Of a stretch of DNA of 64,000 nt, positions 4,942 to 16,104 are shown piece by piece (position 1 is the first letter of the stretch; the number at the start of each line of letters is the position of its first letter). The notes below the pieces were generated by a model that saw nothing but the letters and a program-made list of their open reading frames with translations, was not told the DNA's origin and did not search any database. The position numbers and the translations under genes were made by a program. The DNA comes from Rhizobiaceae bacterium (GTDB lineage: Bacteria > Pseudomonadota > Alphaproteobacteria > Rhizobiales > Rhizobiaceae). Location: the NCBI GenBank assembly GCA_017643495.1, contig JAEPNK010000002.1:1054001-1118000 (forward strand), read 5' to 3'.

Positions 4942-5418
4942 ATGTTCATGAAGAAGATTACATATGCTACCGCAATCGCTGCCCTGATGGCATCACCGGC
5001 CCTGGCAACCAATGCCGACGGTACACAAACCGTAAGGGACCCGGGCATCAGCGCTCTCGAAGCCGCCGGCAATGCCGATGCTTCCGCCAATGTGGACGTT
5101 GAAGCAGGCGCGGCAGTGAGTTCCGATGGGGATACAAAATCCCGCGATGCAGGCATCAATTCAAGGGAAGCTGCCGAGGCATCAGCCGATGCAGACGTTT
5201 CCGTGAACAATGAAAATGATGCTGAAACGGTTGTTCGTGAAAAGGACAGCGTAACATCTTCCAAGGATGCCGGAATCAGCAGCGAGGAAGCTGCCGAGGC
5301 ATCAGGTGATCTGGATGTGAACGCAACGTCTTCTCAGGAATCAAACCTGCGTATCGAAGAAGGTGAAAACCTTGACGGACGCATCGATGCTATCGAAGCA
5401 GCAAAAGATGCCAGCTAA
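4942..5418 (+). CDS. Secreted acidic repeat protein
   Basis: A 158-residue protein with a signal peptide (about 1-22) and a very acidic mature part. Three tandem units of about 36-40 residues begin at residues 33, 69 and 109. Each has the form D(A/P)GI(S/N)xxEAA followed about 8-10 residues later by DxDV. A fourth, weaker unit (RIDAIEAAKDAS) ends the protein. The spacing of AAAGGA supports this start. No known family is recognised. Repeats with regular Asp could bind cations, which is inference only. Confidence 0.65.
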   Translation: MFMKKITYATAIAALMASPALATNADGTQTVRDPGISALEAAGNADASANVDVEAGAAVSSDGDTKSRDAGINSREAAEASADADVSVNNENDAETVVREKDSVTSSKDAGISSEEAAEASGDLDVNATSSQESNLRIEEGENLDGRIDAIEAAKDAS

Positions 5419-6077: not shown

Positions 6078-9632
<3,555 letters not shown>

Positions 9633-9635
9633 TTG

Positions 9636-10073
9636 ATGAAAATATATTTATTTATTTTGTTGATTGGAGTATTTCTTACGGGCTTGATACTAGGAGCGAT
9701 TTTGGTCGCATTAAATTTAAGTATAAGTCCGTCTGCCGATTTACTGATACCTAAAAAACTAGATTTTAGTTCTTTTTCTGGACTACTTTTAGGGTCGATA
9801 TCAATAATTTTCACGTTTTTTGGCGTATTCGTGGCGGTTCTGGCATTTTTCGGATTTACTTCAATAAGAGAGCGTGTCGAAGAGGTTGCACGGATAGAAA
9901 TTGAGGAGTCTGCAAAAACTGGTAAACTCAGGGAATTTATGGAGAATTCTCTTAAACCTGACGGTTCACTTTACAAGTCTGCACAACAAACATTTCGAGA
10001 TACAACTTTCCGTGGAATAGGTTTGGCAGAATCATCCGGTTTTGAGGATCCAAAGGAGGAGGACAAAAATTGA
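9636..10073 (+). CDS. Two-TM membrane protein of the AT-rich island
   Basis: A 145-residue protein. An ATG at 9636 is assumed; a TTG at 9633 directly abuts the uvrB stop and is also possible. Hydrophobic segments span about residues 3-27 and 50-73. A charged cytoplasmic tail follows (SIRERVEEVARIEIEES, then a Lys/Glu-rich stretch). Base composition is clearly AT-richer than uvrB. Its stop overlaps the TTG start of the next gene by 4 bp, so the two are likely translated together. No family is recognised. It could anchor or be a substrate of the following protease; this is inference. Confidence 0.65.
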   Translation: MKIYLFILLIGVFLTGLILGAILVALNLSISPSADLLIPKKLDFSSFSGLLLGSISIIFTFFGVFVAVLAFFGFTSIRERVEEVARIEIEESAKTGKLREFMENSLKPDGSLYKSAQQTFRDTTFRGIGLAESSGFEDPKEEDKN

Positions 10074-10558
10074 GTATTTTAAGGGAATTACCTGCTGGCG
10101 AGCTAGAGATTGTGAAGGAAGCATTGAGCGAGTTTCCCGTAAAATTAGGTGCACTAGCAAAGAAACTTGGCATCAAAGTTTTTGTCGCAACGCTACCGGC
10201 AGGTATATCGGGCGAAATAAAGGCTTCACCAAATGAAGAAGATACTTTCATAATTCGAGTAAACAGACACGAGAGCAGGCCCAGACAAAGGTTCACGTTG
10301 GCGCATGAGATTGGTCATTTTCTGCTACACAAGGACAAAATTGGGAATGGAATAGTCGACGATGCCTTATACCGATCACGATTATCTAACAGCCTGGAAT
10401 ACGAAGCCAATAGATTTGCTGCCGATCTACTAATGCCGAAGGCAGAGATTGATAAAATTTTGGATACTGCGGTGGGATCGGATGACGCTTTGATCGAAAC
10501 TGTCTGCCGGAAATTCGGCGTCTCAAAACAGGCCGCCGAAATTCGATTAGGATTGTAA
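10070..10558 (+). CDS. ImmA/IrrE-family metallo-endopeptidase
   Basis: A 162-residue protein with zinc motif HEIGH (His79, Glu80, His83) in RFTLAHEIGHFLLH. A downstream YEANRFAADLLMP segment has the likely third ligand Glu112. The ending FGVSKQAAEIRL is a helix typical of the family. It starts with TTG after a very strong ribosome site (AAAGGAGGAGG, about 7 nt upstream), overlapping the stop of the membrane gene. Family members such as ImmA of ICEBs1 and IrrE/PprI of Deinococcus cleave HTH repressors. Here no repressor gene is adjacent, so the target may be another island product or a distant regulator. Confidence 0.9.
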   Translation: MSILRELPAGELEIVKEALSEFPVKLGALAKKLGIKVFVATLPAGISGEIKASPNEEDTFIIRVNRHESRPRQRFTLAHEIGHFLLHKDKIGNGIVDDALYRSRLSNSLEYEANRFAADLLMPKAEIDKILDTAVGSDDALIETVCRKFGVSKQAAEIRLGL

Positions 10559-11632
10559 ATGCTTCGAGACATTTTTAAATGTAACTACATTCCGACCTTA
10601 TGTGTACGCCCTGCTGAAATGCGCGCACTTGAGGAATTACCTGAAACCGACAAAGACCTTTTATTTCCCTTTATCCTTTTATCGCCTTGGGTCGGATCGA
10701 ATGAATTGAAGTCTAGTATTGATCGTTTGGAAAAATCATATGGCTCCAGGACTTTTATACTAGGAATTGATCGCTACTATAACCATCAAAGTCCTAAACG
10801 ACAGGCACAATTTGATATCATATCTATGCTTAAGGGTGAGGACAATTTTAAAGAATATTATGATTTTGCTTCAGATATTGAGCAAGCAATCCCCTGTGCA
10901 TTCTTGAGGGAAGACAATTACGCTTGTCTAGAGATTCAAATCGACAGATGCCTAGCTTTAGGTCGTGGAGTAGTCTTATCTATTGATAAAAACAGGTCGG
11001 TTATCAGCAACAACCTCACTTCACTGATTTCTCAATATGACCCTAAGGATATTGCTGTGCATATCGACGGAGGTTGGTCCAAAAACGAGCAGATCGATGC
11101 GCTATGGTACATTAATGTTTGCAAGTCGATCTACTCACAAAATGAAAAGTGCGCGATCGTCGTGTCGTGCTCAAGTTTTCCAAAAGGTTTCGATAATGTT
11201 GAGGGTGTTATTGATATTCCCATTGGGTCCCGACAACTTTTTAATGAAGTAAGCGGAAACTTCAACAATGAAACAATCATTTACGGCGACTGGGCAAGTA
11301 CAAAACCTAGATCGGACGAACGAGGTTCACAACCCAGACCGCGAATTGACTATGCGCTCCATGATAAATGGGTCATTTCTAGGAAGTGGACTCTGGGGAG
11401 TAAGGACAACTGGGACTATGACGATGCTGCTAATAACCTAATTGAAAGTGAATTTTGGCCCAGTTCAATCAATGTTTGGGGCGAAATGCGAATTCAACAG
11501 ACCGCCCTTGGCATGGCATTTTCTATCGAAAATGCGCCAGCAAACGTTGCGGCAAGAATAAATGTTCATCTACATCAACAAACTAATTTTGGTGGTGTAA
11601 TCATCAGTACTGATGATGTCTGGGAAGACTAG
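10559..11632 (+). CDS. Beta family protein (Beta_protein domain)
   Basis: A 357-residue protein whose ATG follows the ImmA-type stop with no gap. It shows features I associate with the 'beta protein' family of phages and bacterial accessory regions: an opening Y-I-P-x-L strand followed by ExRALEEL, a central barrel-like alternation (VVLSIDKN, IAVHIDGG, CAIVVSCSSFP), and near the end the block IYGDWASTKPR then PRIDYALHDKW. No catalytic residues are known to me. Base composition is AT-rich like the two upstream genes. It is the last gene of the operon. Confidence 0.75.
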   Translation: MLRDIFKCNYIPTLCVRPAEMRALEELPETDKDLLFPFILLSPWVGSNELKSSIDRLEKSYGSRTFILGIDRYYNHQSPKRQAQFDIISMLKGEDNFKEYYDFASDIEQAIPCAFLREDNYACLEIQIDRCLALGRGVVLSIDKNRSVISNNLTSLISQYDPKDIAVHIDGGWSKNEQIDALWYINVCKSIYSQNEKCAIVVSCSSFPKGFDNVEGVIDIPIGSRQLFNEVSGNFNNETIIYGDWASTKPRSDERGSQPRPRIDYALHDKWVISRKWTLGSKDNWDYDDAANNLIESEFWPSSINVWGEMRIQQTALGMAFSIENAPANVAARINVHLHQQTNFGGVIISTDDVWED

Positions 11633-12080
11633 TTTATATTTTTGTCTCCGCTTCCCCACTCCCCCATAATTGATCCATCGCATCTTCATAAGCAAACAAT
11701 CACGCTCTGCATTACGCGGCCAACACCACTCTCCCCGTCATCCCGGTTGCCATGCACACCAGGTTCCGTTGCCACTATCGGCAGAAGTGGCGTTAGCGGT
11801 TTGAGGCAAATGGTTGTTCACCCACAGTATCGAACAAACAGATCGGCATAGTGGACCCCACCGGAGCAAGTCCGGCGCAAGCTCATCGCAGTAGCGGCAG
11901 CGGTGACCGGAAAACCGGACGATAATCCCGCCTGCAAAGCCCCCAAAAATATTTCACACGCCCCAATTCCCCGCCATAAATCGGACGCAATGCAGGCGCC
12001 AAATCCTGATTGTTCTGACGCGTGCCTATCGGACAATCATGCCCCCGGCCTCCACGCCAGACTTTTTCAGGACAACAGTC
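11633..12080. other. Gene-free region downstream of the island
   Basis: A T-rich start (TTTATATTTTTG) is followed by GC-richer DNA with several small CCGG-containing palindromes around 11869-11925. A minus-strand frame (11883-12404) is open but looks like a shadow. I see no terminator hairpin directly after the beta gene and no coding region. Confidence 0.4.
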
Positions 12081-12143
12081 ATGAAAGCACCAAAACCTTC
12101 TGCAAAGCCGAAGCCTTCCACTGTGAAGCCAGGCCAGAAGTAA
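12081..12143 (+). CDS. Putative 20-residue basic Pro/Lys-rich peptide
   Basis: An ATG with CAGGA 8 nt upstream opens a 20-codon frame of alternating Lys-Pro and Ser/Ala residues (it starts MKAPKPSAKPKPS). It ends in TAA 43 bp before a strong terminator. The spacing of ribosome site, short frame and terminator suggests a small independent transcript. The composition could also be chance, so the call is tentative. Confidence 0.35.
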   Translation: MKAPKPSAKPKPSTVKPGQK

Positions 12144-12186
12144 GCTGAACTGCGCGTTGCTACCGCCTGCAACGCCCCTGTTCTGG

Positions 12187-12220
12187 ATGGCCGGAGGGTA
12201 CACTCCGGCCATTTTTGATT
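12187..12220 (+). terminator. Rho-independent terminator
   Basis: A perfect 10-bp stem (ATGGCCGGAG / CTCCGGCCAT) with loop GGTACA is followed by TTTTGATTT. Confidence 0.85.
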
Positions 12221-12465
12221 TCCGCTTTGCTTGGTCACTCTTTCGAAAATACCTCTGTACTTTTGCCCGTGCACGGTCTCTGCCCCCACACACGCGAAGC
12301 CAAGGGAAATTGCGGGCTGCCGCGCCGAACAAACAGACCGGTACAGGGACTCCTGGCTGGCCGCAGCGGCCAGGATGACAATCGGTTACCGCCCCCATTC
12401 CCACGCCTTAATTCCCCCCTAGCCTCTTCCCCGCAAACCGAAAACCTAACCCAAGGAGGAAAACC

Positions 12466-12669
12466 ATGTCAGTTGCACGGGTAACGGAAATCATTTCATC
12501 ATCCACCAAGGGCTTTGATGATGCGGTGGAGAAGGGGATAAAGCGGGCTTCCAAAACGTTGAACAACGTCTCCGGTGCGTGGGTGCAGGACCAGAAGGTC
12601 GAATGCAAGAACGGCAAGATAACGGCTTATCGCGTAACCCTCAAAATCACCTTCGTCCTTGATGACTGA
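12466..12669 (+). CDS. Dodecin, flavin-binding storage protein
   Basis: At 67 residues it matches the family's usual length. The opening VARVTEIISSSTKGFDDAVEKGI, the central Trp-containing strand (GAWVQDQKVE) and a YRVTLKITFVLDD ending are all dodecin hallmarks. Dodecins form hollow dodecamers that bind riboflavin, FMN or FAD and are thought to buffer free flavin. A strong ribosome site (AAGGAGG) precedes the ATG. It stands alone. Confidence 0.92.
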   Translation: MSVARVTEIISSSTKGFDDAVEKGIKRASKTLNNVSGAWVQDQKVECKNGKITAYRVTLKITFVLDD

Positions 12670-12888
12670 AGCGCCTGGATAGTGAAATGGCGGGAATTGC
12701 TCCCCCTCACCCTGGGCCTGCCTCCTTGCGGCATGCTCAGGGTGAGATTCAAACTTTCTCCCAAAAATCTATCCCCGCCCCCAATTCGTCTTCCATACTT
12801 CACCCATCGCCTGTTTCACACAAACGACGGATCGCGACCGAAACGAACCGTGGGCAGGCGACAGTGAGGCGGTGAAGGGCTCGGTCTC

Positions 12889-12985
12889 TTTTCCGTCAGC
12901 ATATCCATGCTGACGTCCGTTCACGCGCTGACGTTTTGACCCATTGTCAAAACCTGCGCTGCCACGGAGGGAGGGAAACCTCCCG
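12889..12985 (+). repeat. Intergenic copy of the palindromic repeat
   Basis: TTTTCCG is followed by the 9-bp hairpin CGTCAGCAT-ATCC-ATGCTGACG (12894-12915) and then TCCGTTCACG. Next come the stem GTTTTGAC-CCATT-GTCAAAAC (12933-12953) and GCCACGGAGGG (12961-12971), which begins a GGGAGG-GAAA-CCTCCC hairpin (12969-12984). The order matches the reverse complement of the third uvrB block. Confidence 0.75.
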
Positions 12986-13082
12986 GGAGTTGCGAACCCG
13001 TTGCGGCAAGTTTCGGACTTGTCGCCACCTGAAGGCTGACCCGGGTGGTTTACCTCGCCGAGGCGGTTCTAAAAATCCTCAC

Positions 13083-13145
13083 ACGGGCTGCTCTGTCGAG
13101 CGTCTGAAACAACAACATGGACTGGCGTTCAACCGAGCAGCCCGT
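13083..13145. repeat. 11-bp inverted repeat with 41-bp loop
   Basis: ACGGGCTGCTC (13083-13093) pairs perfectly with GAGCAGCCCGT (13135-13145). It could form a long hairpin or be the end of a degenerate mobile element. No transposase frame lies inside. Confidence 0.5.
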
Positions 13146-13374
13146 TGTTTGTAATACTAGCGTCAGCGATGTCGTCACCCGACAGACAAGCGAAGCGCCA
13201 GCGGGAGAAACAATCCACCACACTGGCCGGAAGGATCGAGTGATCAATCCTGCTTGCTTCCGCCGGCCCATCCGCACCGGCAGCCATTCACACATGGGCA
13301 AAAGTGCCGGTCGCAATTGCCGGGGCCGCCACGCCGGGAGAGAAGCCCCCACGCAAAATTGTTTCGAGGTAAAA

Positions 13375-13400
13375 GAACAACCCTCCGTGGCAGGGCAAGT
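13375..13400 (-). repeat. Short copy of the CCCTCCGTGGC box
   Basis: AACCCTCCGTGGCAGGGCAAG matches the boxes at 9168 and 9408 in uvrB almost exactly. The rest of the repeat is not recognisable. It lies about 35 bp before the start of the next gene. Confidence 0.55.
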
Positions 13401-13422
13401 GGAAAACAGTCAAGAGGAGCCG

Positions 13423-13824
13423 ATGACCACTTCACCATCCCGCCGTTTCAACGCTGCAAAGCTGCTTCAGACAGACATCAATGCCTGGATGACCTGCTCA
13501 TTTGCGAAATGCACCGAAAAGCAGGCCTGCCTTGGCGGGCCGCGCGGTACCTGCGCCAGAACGGATGGCTGGCCGCTTTGTACGCATGAGGGCCGGGAGC
13601 GCATGAAGACCGTACCACCCGGGAAAAAATGGCGGACCAATAAAACCCATGCCCGTGAAACGCCGGGCGAGCGCCAGTTGCGACGCGACGGCGAAGCGCT
13701 GATGCGGATCAACGAGGAACTGCTGAGGCTCAGGATCAAGGAGACAGCAACCCGTATCATGCATTGCACCGGCAATGACGCGCCTTTCCGTGGCTGGCCG
13801 GAAATCGCGGACAACAACCTGTGA
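13423..13824 (+). CDS. Hypothetical Cys-cluster protein
   Basis: A 133-residue protein with AAGAGGAG properly spaced before the ATG. A cluster C-x4-C-x5-C-x6-C (CSFAKCTEKQAC...GTC) lies in the first half, with a further Cys ten residues later (PLCTHEG). The second half is basic and helical (GERQLRRDGEALMRINEELLRLRI). The Cys spacing could hold a metal. Similar C-x-RCxG proteins of unknown role occur in rhizobia. The gene may instead be extended upstream through the repeat, but no start supports that. Confidence 0.5.
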   Translation: MTTSPSRRFNAAKLLQTDINAWMTCSFAKCTEKQACLGGPRGTCARTDGWPLCTHEGRERMKTVPPGKKWRTNKTHARETPGERQLRRDGEALMRINEELLRLRIKETATRIMHCTGNDAPFRGWPEIADNNL

Positions 13825-13896
13825 CTTGCATGTCTCTCTGCTCCGCCCCACATAGGTTTGTAACGGAATCAAACGGACAACCGGAGAGACGAACAG

Positions 13897-14259
13897 ATGA
13901 AAGCCCTGATCCCCAATGCCCTGAAAAAGGGCCTTGCCATTGCCGCCCTGACACTCGCAACACCGCTTGTACCCGCCCTCGCCCCGGCAGCAAATGCCTA
14001 TCAGGGCGATGTGGTGCGCCTGCAGAATGAGGGGTTTGATGCCTGCCGCCAGCTTGGCAATACCGGCTATACGGCAGTGGTGCGCGGCCGCACGGTCTAT
14101 GGGTCCGGCGGGGGCCGCTACACCAACGGGTATGACGGTTTTTCGGTGCGCTACTGCTTTCAGGGCCGTGGCCAGTGCGAGGCTTTTCTCGACCGTATCA
14201 CCCACATAGTGCATGGCGTTTCGGAGATCCGCTACGCAAGCTGCCGCGCCCGCGGCTGA
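13897..14259 (+). CDS. Secreted four-Cys protein, copy 1
   Basis: A 120-residue protein with a clear signal peptide ending near ANAYQG. The mature part has four Cys in the order CRQL ... YCFQ ... QCEAF ... ASC, with a Gly-rich YGSGGGRYTNGYDGF stretch between the first and second. It is a paralogue of the next gene. The ribosome site is GGAGAG. Two disulfides are plausible after export. No family is recognised. Confidence 0.7.
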   Translation: MKALIPNALKKGLAIAALTLATPLVPALAPAANAYQGDVVRLQNEGFDACRQLGNTGYTAVVRGRTVYGSGGGRYTNGYDGFSVRYCFQGRGQCEAFLDRITHIVHGVSEIRYASCRARG

Positions 14260-14388
14260 CGGTGTTCGGGGCAAATCCGCCCGTGTGACATATGTCACAC
14301 AGCGAACAGCCCTGCCCTTCACAGGGCTTTTTCCCTCCGCTACGCTTTGGCATGTTCAGTCAGAGAAACGGGAGATGGAGAAATTCCC

Positions 14389-14742
14389 ATGAAGAAACGC
14401 ACACTTTCCGGCATGGTCCGGTTTGTCACCGGCAGCGGCATTGTCGCTGCTTCACTGTTCACCCTCGCCCTGCCCGCCCAGGCAGACCGGGGCCAGGTCG
14501 TCCGCCTCAATGCCGCCGGGTACGATATCTGCCGGCAGCTAGAAGCAAGTGGCGGGCCGGTATGGTCTGGCAAGGTTCGCGGCAAGCTGCTCGATGGCGG
14601 TGCTTACGGTTCGGGTTACAAGTTCAACATCACGAACTGTTTCCGTACGCAGCGCGAATGTACACAGTTTGTCGGCAGCATCGAGAACCGCATCACGCAA
14701 GTTGACATGATCAATGCCCGCATCTGCCGCAAGCGGTTCTGA
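14389..14742 (+). CDS. Secreted four-Cys protein, copy 2
   Basis: A 117-residue paralogue of the preceding gene. The signal peptide is about residues 1-31. It shares GQVVRLNAAGYDICRQL with the GDVVRLQNEGFDACRQL of copy 1, then the Gly-rich GGAYGSGYKF, NCFRTQREC and a final Cys. The ATG at 14389 is chosen because the signal peptide begins there. The two copies lie 129 bp apart, so they may be separate transcripts from a tandem duplication. Confidence 0.7.
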   Translation: MKKRTLSGMVRFVTGSGIVAASLFTLALPAQADRGQVVRLNAAGYDICRQLEASGGPVWSGKVRGKLLDGGAYGSGYKFNITNCFRTQRECTQFVGSIENRITQVDMINARICRKRF

Positions 14743-14843
14743 GCAAATGCTCAGCCGGCACGACAAAGCGGCGGCAAACAGGGCAGGCAAGGGACACGAT
14801 GCGGCTCAACAGCTGGCACCCGTGTCCGGCCTCTCCGCTGCCG

Positions 14844-15491
14844 TCAGCCCTGCTGCAGGAAGGGGTTCGTCGCCCGCTCCTCGCCGATGGTGCTGGCCGG
14901 GCCGTGCCCGCAGATGAATTGCACATCATCGCCAAGCGGCAGCAGCTTGTTTCGGATCGAGGCAATCAGCGCATCATGGTCACCGCCCGGAAGGTCTGTG
15001 CGGCCGACGGAACCGCGAAACAGCACATCGCCGACATGGGCAAACTTCAGGTCGGCATTGTAGAAAACAACATGGCCCGGCGCATGGCCCGGGCAGTGCA
15101 ACACGTTGAACTCGACCCCGGCAATTGAAACCGTGTCGCCTTCCTCAAGCCAGCGGTCCGGACTGACATTGCGGAAACCTTCATTCATTCCGTAATTCGC
15201 CGCCACCGTCTCGACACTCTCGCATAGCGGCTTGTCATCGACATGCGGCCCGACAATCTCGACACCCAGTTTTTCTTTCAGCGCTTCCGCCGCCCCGACA
15301 TGGTCAAGATGGCCATGCGTCAGGAGTATCGTCTCGACCTTTATCCCCGTCTCGTCAATCGCCCCCATAATGCGTTCGAGGTCACCCCCCGGGTCAATCA
15401 CCACACCCTTCCTGGTTTCCTCGTCAAAGATCAGGGTGCAGTTCTGCTCGAAAGGTGTAACAGGAACAATGGCTATGTTGATTTTCGGCAT
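14844..15491 (-). CDS. MBL-fold hydrolase, glyoxalase II-like
   Basis: A 215-residue protein starting at MPKINI; the 26 upstream codons have no start support. The zinc signature THGHLDHVG is followed by a distant HCPGHAPGHV, the Asp in HVGDVLF and the C-terminal His in CGHGPASTIGEE. This is the small bacterial GloC/YcbL type of hydroxyacylglutathione hydrolase-like protein. It would hydrolyse S-lactoylglutathione or a related thioester in the cytosol. Confidence 0.85.
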   Translation of the reverse strand: MPKINIAIVPVTPFEQNCTLIFDEETRKGVVIDPGGDLERIMGAIDETGIKVETILLTHGHLDHVGAAEALKEKLGVEIVGPHVDDKPLCESVETVAANYGMNEGFRNVSPDRWLEEGDTVSIAGVEFNVLHCPGHAPGHVVFYNADLKFAHVGDVLFRGSVGRTDLPGGDHDALIASIRNKLLPLGDDVQFICGHGPASTIGEERATNPFLQQG

Positions 15492-15617
15492 GTTGTCTAT
15501 CGGAGCTTTCTTCAGTTCTCGTTTCTCATCAAGCCATACGAAAAGGGCGGCTGCCACGCAACCGCCCACAGTATCGAACCGGTTGGTCCGTAACCGTCTC
15601 TGTTCAGGCTGTTCGCA

Positions 15618-15932
15618 CTATTGCTTGTTGCCCATCAGCATTCCGGCAATTCCGGTAAGCGCACCACCGCCAACGGCTCCGCCACCGATCATGGAGATAA
15701 GCGAACCCATGTCCATTCCGGCAATTGCTCCGCCTGCCGCATCACCACCGAGCGAACCGGCTGCTCCGCCAAGTGCTGCACCAAGGGCGCTGCCACCTGC
15801 AATGCCGCCAATGCCGCCTGCCAGGATTTTTGGCAGCAGACCGATTGCTACCTGCTTCACAACAGCCCCAACAATGCCGCCGCCAACCATGCCGGAAATG
15901 GCCTGAATGATAAGTGGTAAAATAGCTTCCAT
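15618..15932 (-). CDS. Gly/Ala-rich small hydrophobic protein
   Basis: A 104-residue protein with GGGAG well spaced before the ATG. It is composed almost entirely of Gly, Ala, Ile, Leu and Met with repeated GG(A/I) steps (GGIGGIAGGSALGAALGGAAG). It probably inserts in a membrane as glycine-zipper helices. No family or partner is evident. Confidence 0.55.
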   Translation of the reverse strand: MEAILPLIIQAISGMVGGGIVGAVVKQVAIGLLPKILAGGIGGIAGGSALGAALGGAAGSLGGDAAGGAIAGMDMGSLISMIGGGAVGGGALTGIAGMLMGNKQ

Positions 15933-16104
15933 GATTATGTCTCCCAAAAAGACCGGCTGGAATTACCAGTCTGATCACAATCTGGCATCCCCTGCCAGTG
16001 AGCGGAACCGGAATTGCCCGCTTCCGCATACATCATACCGTCCCGGCATGAAAATTGGGAGTCAGTGTCAGTATATCGGCAGATTCCACACAGAATTGTG
16101 GGGA

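Follow-up and report, generated by a model that had tools for sequence, protein, structure and literature searches.

Gene organization of the operon

The window, that is, the whole stretch of 64,000 nt that was analyzed and from whose first letter all coordinates are counted, carried three closely packed genes after uvrB. The features were as follows.

uvrB: 6078..9632, + strand, conserved anchor gene 5' of the operon, not part of the system
ORF1: 9636..10073, + strand, 145 aa, small two-TM protein with a soluble acidic C-terminus, candidate Gop-like membrane effector
ORF2: 10070..10558, + strand, 162 aa, single-domain ImmA/IrrE (M78) metalloprotease without HTH, TTG start
ORF3: 10559..11632, + strand, 357 aa, beta-family protein (PF14350), TIM barrel in the model, candidate neutraliser
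Acidic C-terminal tail of beta: 11609..11629, + strand, residues 351–357 (TDDVWED), common to the betas of this clade

ORF1 and ORF2 overlapped by 4 bp, and the gap between ORF2 and ORF3 was zero. The ATG at 9636 was a more likely start of ORF1 than the TTG at 9633, which lies directly 3' of the uvrB stop codon. With this ATG, ORF1 begins 3 nt past the uvrB stop (9632), which leaves no intergenic room for a promoter, and no promoter or terminator signal rose above the shuffled background. The GC content of the operon was 0.412 (0.372, 0.444, and 0.413 for ORF1, ORF2, and ORF3, respectively), compared with 0.615 in uvrB, 0.569 in the downstream DNA, and 0.539 in the window. No HTH gene was found within the operon, and the region 3' of beta (11501–16000) gave no match to an sce7726/cII gene or a remnant of one. 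An earlier note on this DNA had described a packed, AT-rich operon for a two-TM protein, an ImmA/IrrE protease, and a beta protein, with no DNA-binding repressor encoded; the coordinates, the GC contents (0.41 vs. 0.54 for the window), and the gene identities given below all bore this out.

The hydropathy of ORF1 peaked near residues 7–25 and 56–74, which gave two TM segments. Its predicted structure, of low confidence (pLDDT 74, pTM 0.40), comprised helices 2–30 and 44–95. The Pfam scan returned no family above the cut-off, and neither Pfam nor PADLOC scans matched ORF1 to HigB. Weak matches to ZorA and Wzy_C were judged to be generic TM similarity and were rejected. Homology to Gop of phage P4 was also rejected: the hhalign probability was 0.9%, with only two sequences on the Gop side of the comparison. 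The gop profile of PADLOC did not match ORF1, and the agreement with Gop was limited to topology and position. A second TM family resembled the ORF1 family weakly (67%), and no homology was found between it and Gop. Neither ORF1 nor ORF3 matched a repressor in the domain and profile scans.

ORF2 was assigned to Peptidase_M78 (Pfam, 7.5e-24) and consisted of the M78 domain alone, with neither an Xre HTH fusion nor a second domain. Its best PADLOC match was capP (4.2e-32), and a weak match to PD-Lambda-2_B (7.3e-07) was to the peptidase part. Among solved structures, IrrE and CapP were matched. The HEIGH motif at residues 79–83 formed the HExxH zinc site, and the downstream Glu was E110, which we take to be the candidate third zinc ligand by analogy with IrrE. 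H79, E80, H83, and E110 were invariant across ten ImmA homologues of the trios.

ORF3 belonged to the Beta_protein family (PF14350, 5.6e-50) and matched the PADLOC profile 'beta' (4.2e-43) and, weakly, PD-Lambda-2_C (3.6e-08). It was homologous to the beta protein of phage P4, with 27% identity over 93%. Comparison with solved structures by sequence gave nothing convincing, and none of the solved structures related to the operon's proteins accounted for their function. The structural model was confident (pLDDT 89, pTM 0.89) and matched TIM barrels, with a best Z of 12.2 and an rmsd of 3.1 over 192 residues; Foldseek also found them, and many enzymes tied at similar Z. The match describes the modelled fold of beta and names no activity, and conserved polar residues were present on this enzyme-like modelled fold.

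Residues 352–357 of the beta tail were disordered in the model (pLDDT <50). W355 and D357 were invariant in the first alignment of ten trio betas. Neither the second TM-ImmA group nor the betas beside Xre-ImmA proteins had the W-containing tail, and the P4 beta ended in an acidic C-terminus without W. At two related viral loci (L065 and L068), the C-terminal residues were DEEWRD in the membrane protein and DEPWVD or DEPWSD in beta. If the two tails contacted a common partner, such like acidic, W-containing ends on an ORF1-type protein and on beta would be expected. The TIM-barrel model of beta and the acidic W-containing tail of this beta clade are new in this analysis, and the conserved tail provides a concrete site for mutation.

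Recurrence of the trio and other gene arrangements

Single-sequence searches with beta returned few or no relatives, and the search therefore relied on alignments and on the Pfam family. The PF14350 beta was rare, being present in 9 of 289 genomes of the class and 13 of 398 genomes of the phylum, two sets that share the genome of the window and genome G026. Reading of the neighbourhoods of 23 full-length genomic beta loci showed the order TM-ImmA-beta in ten, a long ImmA in five, and neither in eight. One of the five long ImmA proteins was scanned, and it matched PD-Lambda-2_B at 1e-75. Further trios were found at two Rhizobium loci and on a conjugative plasmid of Neorhizobium, and a scan of viral contigs by ImmA alone added many more. 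The co-occurrence counts from the A5 profile in genomes were partly circular since A5 was seeded from beta loci; the viral scan and the Pfam beta scans were therefore relied on.

A small membrane protein was encoded 5' of the short ImmA beside beta in all 39 loci with upstream DNA present. Near-copies occur among the viral loci of this set, only one clear TM peak is seen in a few of the membrane proteins, and the gap in one genome locus (L050) is 220 nt. A convergent sce7726 (cII-type) gene lay 3' of beta in 8/13 non-viral trio loci. The earlier note had named rare co-occurrence of the three genes as a finding that would refute its reading; the search for this gene order showed that the trio recurs widely. 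The trio is more than chance, because the same order is present in many unrelated loci.

TM-ImmA pairs without beta were common in both viral contigs and genomes, for example as two-gene modules (L095, L096, L102, L185, L186, L188, L193, L195, and L197). In the viral contig L094 (2130–3122), an ORF1-type TM hairpin and ImmA were fused in frame into a protein of 330 aa; the search for further fusions returned only this metagenomic contig. These pairs and the fusion point to joint action of ORF1 and ORF2, with room left for beta as a sensor and not an antitoxin. In some other viral contigs (L116, L118, L119, L123, L129, L131, and L137), a small TM protein was encoded 3', not 5', of ImmA.

Phylogeny of the beta proteins

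In the tree of 52 betas, the type of neighbouring gene changed 7 times, compared with 25 in shuffles. A branch with 100/99 support separated the betas of Xre-ImmA loci from those of TM-ImmA and gop loci, and the betas of the window and of P4 fell on the same side. This indicated that the type of beta tracks the kind of effector. The tailed TM-ImmA betas formed one group with modest support (82/46).

The variable slot after uvrB

The DNA 3' of uvrB varied from genome to genome among the relatives. AT-rich genes followed uvrB in 16 of 42 evaluable relatives and followed ilvE, the one control gene, in 1 of 31 (Fisher p 0.0005). This variable slot corresponds to 9632–9636 of the window, and examples among the relatives are L169, L170, L173, L175, L176, L178, L243, L268, and L276. 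The trio of the window and the trios of Rhizobium L002 and L003 all occupied it; about 120 nt separated uvrB and ORF1 in the two Rhizobium loci. Eight relatives had PADLOC matches at the slot. These were a PDC-M19 pair (in a genome outside the 42 evaluable ones, its local GC being low), an RT, a type II-A retron, a GmrSD-type gene, an RT-TIR (type XII) retron, a dCTPase, a SIR2-like gene, and an OLD/GajA-like gene. The slot is thus a hotspot rich in defence genes in the family of the host. Of the evidence that the operon serves in defence, this weighs most, and it is contextual in kind.

The uvrB gene of the window also carried an in-frame insert of ~77 aa just before the Walker A motif (aa 214–290; 6717–6947), which was absent from the relatives by tblastn match. 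Part of it matched, mostly reversed, a ~95-bp repeat in the uvrB tails of relatives, and its sequence suggests a mobile coding repeat. Upstream of uvrB, 4942–5418 encoded a small acidic secreted-looking protein with repeated DAGI-x-S-x-EAAEAS-like motifs.

Comparison with known systems

The gop-beta-cII system of P4 protects against lambda and P1 (Rousset et al., PMC9122126). The same paper, citing Ghisotti et al. (1990), reports that Gop is toxic without beta; beta is likely the antitoxin. In P4, gop is followed by beta, which faces cII (an sce7726 protein); Gop is a small membrane protein of 133 aa with two hydrophobic segments. The Pasteurella phage Pmp11 has the same layout, with a small membrane protein and beta without ImmA. 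The window operon shares with P4 the beta family and the side of the 100/99 split, both units begin with a gene for a small membrane protein, and a convergent cII-type gene is present in many relatives of the trio. However, ImmA is absent from P4, no homology between Gop and ORF1 could be recognised, the W tail motif is missing from the P4 beta, and cII is missing from the window.

PD-lambda-2 also protects against phages, and its three parts are a HigB-like protein, an Xre-peptidase, and a P4-antitoxin-like protein (Vassallo et al., PMC9519451). Its second part (Xre-ImmA) is toxic and is rescued by the first, and its beta is needed for defence and dispensable for toxin neutralisation (PMC9519451). 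Both this system and the window operon have three genes, the last two being an ImmA/IrrE peptidase and then beta. However, the first gene is HigB-like there and encodes a membrane protein in the window, the PD-lambda-2 ImmA is fused to an Xre HTH whereas ORF2 is the M78 domain alone, and the betas beside Xre-ImmA fusions, which have no such tail, are separated from the window beta by the deep split in the tree. The window operon therefore lacks two features of P4 gop-beta-cII (a Gop homologue and cII) and two of PD-lambda-2 (HigB and the Xre fusion), while beta is common to all three and the ImmA peptidase is also part of PD-lambda-2.

CapP/CapH and ImmA/ImmR likewise have an M78 protease with HExxH, and capP was the best PADLOC match of ORF2. 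In contrast to them, ORF2 has 162 aa, no second domain, and no adjacent HTH repressor, and it is flanked by a membrane protein and beta. A RexAB-like pair, Sbash gp30/gp31 (PMC6426596), resembles the window operon in the proposed logic of a prophage-type defence, in which a cytosolic partner turns on a small membrane effector. The two have no families in common: a four-TM effector and a DUF4747 sensor stand against a two-TM protein, a protease, and beta.

The earlier note had called the operon an undescribed system. That was too strong, as beta is part of the validated P4 gop-beta-cII (PMC9122126) and the pairing of ImmA/IrrE with beta occurs in PD-lambda-2 (PMC9519451). In the open-access literature, where several search terms matched poorly, no description was found of a small membrane protein combined with beta and an ImmA that lacks an HTH. 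The trio links these two separately found systems through the parts common to both. It also makes the role of beta testable, and the target of ImmA where no repressor is present.

Putative function and alternative explanations

The operon probably functions in phage defence, a role that is well supported, among other things by the defence genes beside uvrB in relatives. A putative module whose protease controls another part, as proposed in the earlier note, is the best-supported reading. We propose that the operon may be a protease-controlled relative of P4 gop-beta-cII and may act in abortive infection as a toxin-antitoxin-like module of three parts. ORF1 would be a small inner-membrane effector, harmful once unleashed, like Gop, and beta would hold it in check. 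ORF2, a cytoplasmic protease without a repressor of its own to cut, would sense infection or damage and cleave a partner, most likely beta (perhaps via the acidic tail) or the tail of ORF1. Cleavage would free ORF1, and the infected cell would die or stop before phage release. We infer the toxicity of ORF1, its neutralisation by beta, the cleavage target of ImmA, and the trigger; that a Gop-like toxin, a beta neutraliser, and an ImmA trigger are combined here has about an even chance of being right.

The membership of beta in the P4 family, together with the reported toxicity of the small membrane protein Gop without beta, supports beta as the neutraliser. The membrane protein 5' of the short ImmA in 39/39 loci, the beta tree, the L094 fusion, and the like tails of both proteins at L065 and L068 support the arrangement of toxin, neutraliser, and trigger. 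On the other side, the similarity of ORF1 to Gop is undetectable, which counts against a Gop-like effector, and beta is dispensable for neutralisation in PD-lambda-2, where Xre-ImmA is toxic (PMC9519451). The common beta-less modules also count against this reading, as they show that some TM-ImmA units do without beta.

Alternatively, ORF1 and ORF2 would form the toxic core. The membrane protein would then anchor and restrain the protease, and beta, which may bind a phage product or metabolite, would activate it on infection so that host or phage proteins are cut. The beta-less pairs and the one known fusion fit this explanation, as do the toxic Xre-ImmA of PD-lambda-2, whose beta serves defence and not neutralisation, and the enzyme-like modelled fold of beta with its conserved polar residues. 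However, P4 and Pmp11 have a small membrane protein and beta without ImmA, their betas lie on the side of the tree to which the window beta belongs, and Gop is reported to be toxic without beta (PMC9122126); we consider this explanation possible but not probable. The operon is unlikely to be an addiction or stabilisation module of toxin-antitoxin type that occupies a permissive integration site and has no real phage role. In favour of such a module are the AT-rich, accessory nature of the operon, its variable site, and its relatives in viral contigs and a conjugative plasmid, which could profit from addiction, but defence genes recur at the same uvrB slot, and P4 gop-beta-cII and PD-lambda-2 are both phage-protective. 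It is highly improbable that the operon is transcribed together with uvrB as a module for stress or DNA damage, in which ImmA acts like IrrE on a repressor encoded elsewhere. The missing promoter room behind uvrB and the match of ORF2 to the IrrE structure would suit such a module; however, phages and plasmids also carry the partners, far from uvrB, and uvrB and ORF1 lie about 120 nt apart in Rhizobium L002 and L003, and the operon encodes no HTH partner.

The reading of a toxin, a neutraliser, and a protease trigger may be extended, although in this form it is doubtful. The trio would then represent an antiphage type of its own. Its metalloprotease would directly gate a membrane toxin under the hold of a TIM-barrel antitoxin, with the acidic W tail as the recognition or docking site of the protease, and P4 gop-beta-cII would be a derived form that lost the protease. 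If so, the beta-less TM-ImmA pairs would make up a broader class of protease effectors tethered to the membrane.

The uvrB slot is also a place to seek further systems. AT-rich slot genes were observed at L175:5520–7281, L274:3280–4827, and L245:446–940. PADLOC gave no match for any of those scanned (both L175 genes, L245, and L274:3280–4302), and these are possibly undescribed systems. At L268:636–2488, a ParA-like ATPase adjoined the SIR2-like gene at the slot.
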